From Flavobacteriaceae bacterium (GTDB lineage: Bacteria > Bacteroidota > Bacteroidia > Flavobacteriales > Flavobacteriaceae): DNA of 64,000 nt. Under the pieces are notes generated by a model. That model saw nothing but the letters and a program-made list of their open reading frames with translations. It was not told the origin of the DNA and made no database searches. The position numbers were made by a program, and so were the translations under genes. Below, in pieces: positions 22,953 through 25,673 of this stretch (positions are counted from its first letter, which is position 1; each line of letters starts with the position of its first letter). Location: NCBI GenBank assembly GCA_009827225.1, contig WUAI01000003.1:78399-142398 (forward strand). The letters are read 5' to 3'.

Positions 22953-24347
22953 ATGTCGACTCTCAAAAAAATAATTCAGCATTTTCCTAAGGCAGTGGCC
23001 GGTACTCAGCAGGAATTCACCTCCGGAAGTATCCGGAAGGCGGTTTTTATGCTCTCAGTACCCATGGTATTGGAAATGATGATGGAATCCATTTTCTTCC
23101 TTGTGGATGCCTATTGGGTGTCCAGCCTGGGGGCCAATGCGATCGCCACGGTAGGCCTCACCGAATCGGTACTTACCCTGGTTTACGCTGTAGCAATAGG
23201 TTTGAGCATGGGAGTTACGGCCATCGTTGCGAGACGAATTGGTGAAAAAGATGTGGATGGTGCATCCAAAACAGCGGTTCAGTCGATCTTTTTAGGAATT
23301 GCTGTCGCAATGGTAATTAGTGCAATAGGCATTCTGTTTCCGAAGGAAATTCTCACCCTCATGGGAGGAGAACCCGACCTGGTCAATTCGGGTTATGGTT
23401 ATACCCAGATACTTCTTGGAGGAAACGTGACCATTATGTTGCTGTTTTTGATCAATGCGGTTTTCAGAGGGGCCGGGGATGCATCTGTGGCAATGAAAGT
23501 TCTCATACTTTCCAATTTGCTGAATATCATCCTGGATCCATTATTCATATTCGGATGGGGTCCATTTCCTGCTTTTGGCGTAAAAGGTGCGGCTATAGCT
23601 ACCACCATCGGACGAGGGACTGCGGTAATCTTTCAATTGCTGATTCTTTTCTTCGGTTGGAGCAAGATCAAAGTCGGATTCAAGGATGTGGTCTTCAGAG
23701 CAAAACTCATGTGGAACCTGATAAAGGTTTCCCTTGGTGGTATTGGGCAGTTTATAATCGGAACTTCCAGTTGGGTATTCCTGATGCGAATCATGGCCGA
23801 ATTTGGTAGTGAAGTACTGGCCGGTTATACTATAGCCATACGAGTGTTGATGTTCACCTTAATGCCATCCTGGGGAATGAGTAACGCTGCGGCTACTCTC
23901 GTTGGGCAGAATTTAGGAGCGGGTAAGCCCAAACGGGCTGAAGATTCCGTATGGAAAACGGGTAAATACAACGCCTGGTTCATGCTATTCGTTTCCCTGT
24001 TTTATCTGTTCTTCGCCGAATTTATACTGAAGGTATTCAGTGAAGATTCCCAGGTGATAGAGTATGGTGCTTTAAGCCTTCGTATCATCGCAGCGGGGTA
24101 TGTTTTTTATGCCTACGGAATGGTGATCGTCCAGGCATTCAACGGCGCCGGAGATACCAAAACTCCTACCATCATTAATTTCTTTTGTTTCTGGATTTTC
24201 CAACTACCGTTTGCTTACCTGGCCGCTATGGTCTTTGATTGGGGAGCGTTGGGCGTCTTCATTGCGATCACGGTGACAGAAGTACTCATCGCCATTATCG
24301 CCATTTTGTGGTTCCGTCGGGGCAACTGGAAAAAAGTTCAGGTTTAA
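22953..24347 (+). CDS. MATE family efflux transporter
   Basis: Twelve-TM architecture; VPMVLEMMMESIFFLVDAYWVSSLGANAIATVGL is typical of MATE/NorM-like proteins. Confidence 0.93.
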   Translation: MSTLKKIIQHFPKAVAGTQQEFTSGSIRKAVFMLSVPMVLEMMMESIFFLVDAYWVSSLGANAIATVGLTESVLTLVYAVAIGLSMGVTAIVARRIGEKDVDGASKTAVQSIFLGIAVAMVISAIGILFPKEILTLMGGEPDLVNSGYGYTQILLGGNVTIMLLFLINAVFRGAGDASVAMKVLILSNLLNIILDPLFIFGWGPFPAFGVKGAAIATTIGRGTAVIFQLLILFFGWSKIKVGFKDVVFRAKLMWNLIKVSLGGIGQFIIGTSSWVFLMRIMAEFGSEVLAGYTIAIRVLMFTLMPSWGMSNAAATLVGQNLGAGKPKRAEDSVWKTGKYNAWFMLFVSLFYLFFAEFILKVFSEDSQVIEYGALSLRIIAAGYVFYAYGMVIVQAFNGAGDTKTPTIINFFCFWIFQLPFAYLAAMVFDWGALGVFIAITVTEVLIAIIAILWFRRGNWKKVQV

Positions 24348-24408
24348 GACACAAATAAGTATTTATACGTATTGGGAATCAGCACTGCTGAAAGTAATTT
24401 TAGGTATA

Positions 24409-24475
24409 ATACTAGAACATTAAGTGTTGGGGAGCATCTTAATGTGGAGGCCGTAAGTTTCTTACGGCTTTTTTT
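24409..24475 (+). ncRNA. Candidate small RNA, tandem unit 1
   Basis: TTG-N20-TAATTTTA upstream; hairpin ACATTAAG TGTT GGGG AGCA t CTTAATGT (24417-24445); terminator GCCGTAAG-ttt-CTTACGGC-T7 (24450-24475). Confidence 0.5.
24450..24475 (+). terminator. Intrinsic terminator
   Basis: GCCGTAAG-TTT-CTTACGGC followed by 7 T. Confidence 0.9.
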
Positions 24476-24535
24476 CGATTTTTACCCGGTATTGGGTATT
24501 CATTCAAGAGAATTGAGTAGCTATTTTTGAGTTAA

Positions 24536-24606
24536 CTCAAGTTTTCGGCAGTATGGGGAGTACTGTCGTTCCAACCGCACTTTTTTAAGTGCGGTTTTCT
24601 TTTTTA
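24536..24606 (+). ncRNA. Candidate small RNA, tandem unit 2
   Basis: TATTTTTG -7 motif at 24522-24529; hairpin CGGCAGTAT-GGGGA-GTACTGTCG (24546-24568); terminator AACCGCACTT-tttt-AAGTGCGGTT (24573-24606). Confidence 0.5.
24573..24606 (+). terminator. Intrinsic terminator
   Basis: AACCGCACTT-TTTT-AAGTGCGGTT followed by T-rich tract. Confidence 0.9.
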
Positions 24607-24647: not shown

Positions 24648-25673
24648 ATGAACGAACACCTCGATCCCACAGGCGATCATTTAAGTCCGCAGGAACTCGA
24701 TCTTGAAAAGAAATTACGGCCGTTAAGCTTTGAAGATTTCAATGGTCAGGATCAGGCGTTGGAAAATCTACAGGTGTTCGTACAAGCCGCCAACTTGCGG
24801 GATGAAGCATTAGATCACACCCTTTTTCACGGTCCGCCCGGCCTCGGTAAAACCACCCTGGCACATATACTGGCAAATGAACTCGATGTGAATATTCGGG
24901 TGACTTCAGGCCCGGTATTGGATAAGCCAGGAGACCTGGCGGGTTTGCTTACCAACCTGGATGAAAGGGACGTTTTATTCATAGATGAAATTCACAGATT
25001 GAGTCCTATAGTGGAGGAGTATTTGTATTCCGCGATGGAGGATTATAAGATTGATATCATGATCGAATCAGGGCCCAACGCCCGAACGGTCCAAATCAAT
25101 CTTGCACCATTCACTTTGGTAGGGGCTACGACTCGTTCGGGATTGCTGACAGCTCCCATGAGAGCGCGGTTTGGAATTTCTTCCCGCCTGCAATATTATA
25201 CCACTGATTTGCTTACTACCATCGTACAAAGGAGTTCAGGGATTCTGGATGTTCCTATCACCATGGAAGCTGCTATTGAGATAGCAGGCCGTAGTCGGGG
25301 GACTCCAAGAATAGCAAATGCCTTATTAAGAAGGGTACGTGACTTTGCACAGATCAAAGGAGATGGGAATATCAATATTGAAATTGCGAAATACGCCTTA
25401 GAACAACTCAATGTGGATGCCCATGGGCTGGACGAAATGGACAACAAGATCCTCACCACCATTATCGATAAATTTAAAGGTGGTCCGGTGGGAATAACCA
25501 CATTGGCTACTGCGGTTTCGGAAAGTGGAGAAACCATAGAGGAAGTCTACGAGCCTTTCCTGATTCAACAGGGATTCATTATGAGAACCCCGAGAGGACG
25601 TGAGGTAACCGAGGCAGCTTACAAACACTTGGGAAGGATCAAAGGGGGTGCACAAGGAGGCTTATTTGAATGA
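24648..25673 (+). CDS. ruvB: Holliday junction branch migration helicase RuvB
   Basis: Walker [29 protein letters not shown]. Confidence 0.99.

Follow-up and report, generated by a model that had tools for sequence, protein, structure and literature searches.

What occupies the gap of about 300 nt that separates a gene for a MATE family transporter from ruvB in this member of the Flavobacteriaceae? The window that we analysed, a stretch of 64,000 nucleotides, had been given an initial annotation which placed in this gap two tandem units of matching architecture, each a GGGGA-loop hairpin followed by a terminator, and saw in them a duplicated family of small RNAs (sRNAs) that it did not recognise. 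On the evidence of its sequence, the gap is the seat of two conserved and previously undescribed sRNA genes, the transcripts being predicted. We ask further what would control these RNAs, and what they may act upon.

Two predicted sRNA genes upstream of ruvB

Both units lie where they had been placed, each with a promoter, a hairpin presenting GGGGAG in its loop and a terminator (Table 1). Their folding z-scores against dinucleotide shuffles are -5.4 for unit 1 and -5.2 for unit 2, with 0 of 200 shuffles as stable, and the operator-plus-promoter pattern of unit 2 has one match in the 64 kb and none in 100 shuffles. Within the window, a covariance model of the units had no matches but the two themselves (E 2e-14 and 3e-10), on which it had been trained. 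The string GTATTGGG, initially presented as shared by the two units, is indeed found in each, but the agreement is in part accidental and the copies are not in register: that of unit 1 joins the last bases of the operator to the -33 TTG (24369-24376), and that of unit 2 is internal to the operator TACCCGGTATTGGGTA (24489-24496), the true counterpart there being GGGTATTC.

Table 1. Features of the MATE-ruvB region, in window coordinates.
Feature	Position	Strand	Basis and remarks
MATE family transporter (MatE, PF01554)	22953..24347	+	ORF and domain match; upstream neighbour
Class A operator of unit 1, TAAGTA-TTTA-TACGTA	24356..24371	+	Sequence; one departure from TACGTA-N4-TACGTA
-7 box of unit 1, TAATTTTA	24395..24402	+	Sequence; exactly 23 nt past operator
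sRNA 1 (predicted, about 65-69 nt)	24407..24475	+	5' AUAAUACUAG, hairpin, terminator; start inferred from a -7 box at -12 to -5 (PMC9723704)
Hairpin of unit 1, apical GGGGAG at 24429-24434	24417..24445	+	Sequence, folding, covariation
Intrinsic terminator of unit 1, GCCGTAAG-ttt-CTTACGGC-T7	24450..24475	+	Sequence, folding
Class B operator of unit 2, TACCC-GGTATT-GGGTA	24483..24498	+	Sequence; class B also twice at the RR-B locus of the same genome
-7 box of unit 2, TATTTTTG	24522..24529	+	Sequence; exactly 23 nt past operator
sRNA 2 (predicted, about 65-72 nt)	24534..24605	+	Folding; homologues in relatives
Hairpin of unit 2, apical GGGGAG at 24555-24560	24546..24568	+	Sequence, folding
Intrinsic terminator of unit 2, AACCGCACTT-tttt-AAGTGCGGTT and T-rich tract	24573..24605	+	Sequence, folding
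ruvB (name from the initial annotation)	24648..25673	+	ORF; downstream neighbour

Nine genomes of the window's genus were compared. The order MATE, RNA, ruvB is kept in G004, G007, G003 and G008, and recurs with a single unit in other genera (G122, G230, G020, G110); ruvB orthologues themselves are present in 200 of 201 genomes of the family. Homologues of unit 2 were found in G004, G007, G003 and G005, and in G086, which belongs to a distant genus, two tandem units again stand upstream of ruvB, with the operator classes in the same order. Aureisphaera galaxeae is among the relatives that match the pattern. A lack of the GGGGA hairpins in relatives had been named as an outcome that would refute the proposal, and this outcome is excluded. 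The stems show strong compensatory changes: in an alignment of 17 units to the model, compensatory cells number 45 of 184, a count biased by the fitting of that alignment to the structure, and the covariation score was 0.573, against at most 0.172 in controls in which the 3' partner had been slid. The loop GRGGAG is invariant in all 13 aligned seed units. Stem covariation and invariant loop together bear out the proposal of a duplicated family, with divergent stems and a conserved exposed loop, of which the RNA products are predicted. That the units are simply the end of the MATE mRNA fails, because each has its own operator and promoter and because related units also occur where MATE is absent.

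Rfam 15 gave nothing at threshold in the window region, in the relatives or in the arrays discussed below; a weak overlap with DUF3800-I (24344-24481) was set aside, at 23.8 bits for a gathering score of 44.2. Two variants of the units may be recorded. In G008 (L035, upstream of ruvB) the promoter and terminator of unit 2 are intact and its loop is without the GGAG motif, the unit being apparently in decay. The other variant, seen in L045, L127 (unit 2), L153 and L159 (unit 2), has GAGGAG or CGGGGAG in its terminator loop as well, and these RNAs would thus expose the motif twice.

Operators, spacing and two paralogous regulators

Upstream of each -7 box, and separated from it by exactly 23 nt, stands a palindrome of 16 bp that had been overlooked. 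In relatives, it reads AATACGTA-N4-TACGTATT before unit 1 and AATACCC-N6-GGGTATT before unit 2; unit 1 belongs to a TACGTA-N4-TACGTA class (A) and unit 2 to a TACCC-N6-GGGTA class (B). An OmpR/PhoB-type direct repeat with a 10-bp period (ACGTATT-N3-ACGTATTG) was considered and dropped, as other genomes show true palindromes beside LuxR-type regulators. Class II activators bind at positions centred near -43. As the -7 box was mapped at -12 to -5 in Flavobacterium psychrophilum (PMC9723704), the 23-nt spacing puts the centre of the palindrome near -43. The position of this predicted site is that of a NarL/FixJ-type response regulator acting as a class II activator.

At loci fetched only for their regulator gene (RR-A, described below), 83 of the 107 -7 boxes lying within 5-40 nt stand at exactly 23 nt. 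The class A composite (operator, 23 nt, TANNTTT) has about 50 matches in the nine genomes of the genus, against one for the reversed pattern; the class B pattern is noisier at two mismatches, and its exact matches in these genomes include unit 2 and one site of the RR-B locus.

Which regulators would recognise these sites may be read from gene neighbourhoods. sRNA units lie directly behind a gene for a receiver plus GerE domain protein in G178, G123, G125, G173, G022, G172 and G203. The orthologue of this gene in the window's genome, 56% identical, is here named RR-A (G000:C3:7090-7689). A TPR histidine kinase accompanies it, and a class A site comes after the gene; the paralogue RR-B (G000:C26:10530-11108) likewise has a TPR kinase, with two class B sites downstream (C26:11163 and 11600). 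Six genomes of the genus, this one included, have a class A site immediately behind RR-A, and class B is linked to RR-B also in G005, G003 and G001. From these neighbourhoods we infer that RR-A and RR-B would control the units, and that the placement of their sites would be autoregulatory.

The operators are also found before ordinary genes. In this genome class A sites are found in front of unit 1, of the 45-aa membrane ORF that comes after RR-A, of the gene for a 937-aa secreted protein and of a 414-aa ORF. Class B sites are found in front of unit 2, of a LuxR-type ORF of 127 aa, of a secreted-protein gene beside RR-B and of several further genes for secreted proteins or lipoproteins. Many matches to the unit model R1 at E 0.005-0.05 are likewise operator-promoters of ordinary mRNAs, not of sRNAs. 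The operators before secreted or lipoprotein-like genes suggest surface-protein regulons shared with the sRNAs.

The surroundings of the regulator genes hold some features of their own. The 127-aa ORF has a GerE helix-turn-helix as its only domain and lies between two class B operators beside RR-B (L253:5715-6098; G000:C26:11214-11597). In the region L254:2990-7913 (G000:C24) a third paralogue, RR-A', accompanies a kinase with propeller and Y_Y_Y domains; next come TACGTAGGCCTACGTA and a HYR-domain protein of 1393 aa that carries a T9SS sorting tail, and G003, G005, G007 and G008 show a similar order. A conserved membrane ORF of 37-45 aa, with no Pfam match, comes after RR-A or after the sRNA array (L255:3281-3418, that is G000:C3:7780-7917; L086:1788-1910; L080:1098-1211), and in the window's genus it stands directly behind a class A operator. 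Both operator classes also precede genes for likely secreted proteins or lipoproteins (L077, L092, L113, L130, L131, L135, L139, L146).

Arrays behind RR-A and complementarity to leaders

RR-A orthologues were found in 102 of 251 genomes of the family (E 1e-58), and the DNA downstream of the gene was examined at about 90 loci. All 44 orthologues at least 61% identical to the query have one to five tandem modules directly after the gene; those below about 60%, the window's clade among them, are mostly without modules, and in the window's genus the operator stands before the small membrane ORF instead of an array. Each module is made of the same operator, a spacer (23 nt in nearly all) and a -7 box, with a usual period of about 145-150 bp. 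Nearly all are predicted sRNAs with a G-rich loop, while a few last modules of arrays drive the small ORF and no sRNA. GCUAUUAAU starts 83 of 104 extracted modules, most of which carry AGGGAG; the hairpin is mostly UUCU-UAGGG-AGAA, with UUGAGAG loops in many second copies, and its sequence is kept through dozens of genera (GUUCUUAGGGAGAAU in 39 of 71 modules). Model R2, built from 49 array sRNAs, matches neither window unit, and transcript homology was not detected with it. The putative kinship of the two sub-families therefore rests on operator, spacing and loop motif.

Two stretches of the RR-A leader in array genomes are complementary to the sRNA. One, AUUAAUAGC, lies 20-30 nt upstream of the start codon and matches the 5' end of the sRNA; the other, about 8-15 nt upstream, is (C)UCCCU(A) or CUCUCU and matches one or other of the two loop types. 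The mean duplex of the sRNA hairpin region with this leader is -11.8 kcal/mol, compared with -7.9 (sd 0.35) for mononucleotide shuffles of the leader, and that of the 5' end -6.6 compared with -2.7 (sd 0.22); the leader of the adjacent aspartyl-protease gene shows no excess pairing (-6.8 and -3.8, where shuffles of it give -7.5 and -3.3). AATAGC occurs in 22 and UCCCU in 14 of 44 RR leaders, and each in 0 of 29 control leaders. In the array clade an sRNA matches its own leader modestly better than in permuted combinations (124 and 91 of 5000). The two complementary stretches run in parallel order in sRNA and leader, so that no single sRNA could pair through both at once in a simple duplex. For the arrays, pairing of the loop with C-rich leaders, including a two-component feedback, is likely as a prediction.

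Evidence for targets is only suggestive in the window's own clade. The histidine-kinase leader of this genome contains UCCCCAA, predicted to pair with the unit 1 loop UUGGGGA at -14.0 kcal/mol, and similar C-rich sites exist in kinase leaders of G004, G001, G230, G086 and G234; a matching stretch is absent from those of G007, G003, G008, G122 and others. Own sRNA and own kinase leader pair no better than permuted ones in this clade, with no covariation, and the complement of the unit 1 5' end is absent upstream of this genome's own kinase. The loop complement CTCCCCA has 10 matches in the window for 8.1 expected, with no convincing site at a gene start.

A possible feedback circuit and its known counterparts

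We consider it probable that the units are sibling sRNA outputs of two paralogous two-component systems, whose G-rich loop would pair with C-rich leaders, those of their regulators included. In the scheme that follows, transcription, response regulator binding, the direction of control, pairing in cells and the targets in the window's species are what we infer. Phosphorylated RR-A, of the NarL/FixJ type, would activate unit 1 from its class A site, and RR-B would activate unit 2 from the class B site, each regulator binding in dimeric form to a 16-bp palindrome whose centre lies near -43, as in class II activation. The transcript, about 65-70 nt long, would display a short unpaired 5' end, a hairpin whose loop exposes RGGAG, and lastly an intrinsic terminator; this loop would then pair with C-rich sequences in mRNA leaders, the best-supported target being the regulator's own mRNA, which would create a feedback.

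Loops of this kind might instead capture a protein. RGGAG could bind an RNA-binding protein as the GGA loops of RsmY, RsmZ and CsrB bind CsrA, and a two-component system, by controlling the tandem GGA hairpins, would then regulate that protein; the wiring follows the same logic as that of GacA-RsmXYZ (FixJ-type regulator, palindromic site, GGA-loop sRNAs), and some relatives (L045, L127, L153, L159) have a second motif in the terminator loop, two per RNA. However, a search of 40 genomes found CsrA (PF02599) over cut-off in none, three control genomes being positive, so that titration of CsrA itself was rejected. The motif is GRGGAG and not ANGGA, many second array copies have GAGAG and no GGA, and a role in protein titration seems unlikely to us. 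Hfq (PF17209) was also found in none of the 40 genomes, with positive controls, and dependence on Hfq was rejected too.

It is quite unlikely that nothing more than terminators and promoter remnants is at hand, in which case the hairpins would be structural relics of duplicated operator-promoter-terminator modules and the RNAs inactive in trans: operators of the same class do drive ordinary mRNAs and the sRNA transcripts are predicted ones, but the array hairpin is conserved over dozens of genera, the window-type hairpin covaries, and there is complementarity to the regulator leader. Least credible of all, and indeed very improbable, is an action on the ribosome, in which RGGAG, by its resemblance to a Shine-Dalgarno sequence, could pair with the 16S anti-Shine-Dalgarno, for instance in ribosomes without bS21: by our own reasoning six pairs, one of them G-U, are possible between AGGGAG or GAGGAG and CUCCUU in the 16S tail, and the anti-Shine-Dalgarno is freed in Flavobacterium johnsoniae ribosomes when bS21 is missing, but it is normally sequestered, its known user rpsU needs an extended Shine-Dalgarno (PMC9976891), the GAGAG copies would pair poorly, and the specific complementarity to the RR-A leader would be left unexplained.

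Returning to loops that pair with regulator leaders, we may venture a wider proposal, held tentatively and with somewhat more doubt than conviction, of a self-limiting module widespread in Flavobacteriaceae and working without Hfq or CsrA. A NarL/FixJ-type regulator would activate tandem mini-sRNAs beside its own gene, and their G-rich loop and 5' end would pair with the regulator's leader; in the window's lineage, the pair adjoining ruvB would be split between two paralogous two-component systems, thereby made to converge on a single RNA seed. The ways in which sRNAs act in those Bacteroidota that have no Hfq and seldom use Shine-Dalgarno sequences are largely an open question. Here a conserved family comes with a predicted regulator, operator, seed and target, in a module of about 70 nt that is testable in genetically tractable flavobacteria, and DNA-site specificities can be proposed for two groups of LuxR-type response regulators of Flavobacteriaceae.

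The open-access literature that we searched contains no description of this regulator-sRNA module. The transcriptome of F. psychrophilum yielded 85 new Rfp RNAs, which are, like the present ones, conserved Flavobacteriaceae sRNAs with a strong predicted structure, and among which Rfp18 is described as pairing with metalloprotease mRNAs through its third stem-loop; no operator or architecture of the kind seen here is found in the main text of that work (PMC9723704). Some Rfp RNAs may be the same as array sRNAs.

In Pseudomonas, RsmX, RsmY and RsmZ are several sibling sRNAs with GGA in exposed loops. Their control by GacA (for RsmY and RsmZ, see PMC2904497) resembles what is predicted here, with a FixJ/NarL-type regulator and a palindromic upstream site; palindromes, fixed spacing and a regulator neighbourhood are what the sequence shows. 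Unlike the CsrB and RsmX/Y/Z RNAs, characterised by several ANGGA loop motifs, the present RNAs have GRGGAG, usually as one motif with one short hairpin per RNA; CsrA/RsmA was not found, and there is complementarity to the regulator's own mRNA. The Qrr and Omr sRNAs feed back on their regulator, and both need Hfq. Qrr1-5 with LuxO and OmrA/B with ompR (reviewed in PMC4211561) share with our units the arrangement, predicted in our case, of related sRNAs under a two-component regulator with pairing to its mRNA: at the sequence level there are at least two related sRNAs with a common exposed motif and their own promoter and terminator, and complementarity to the regulator mRNA is strong in the array clade and mixed in the window clade. 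What distinguishes the flavobacterial RNAs, besides genomes in which no Hfq was found, is their tandem clustering directly after the regulator gene and, for the window pair, its predicted division between two regulators.
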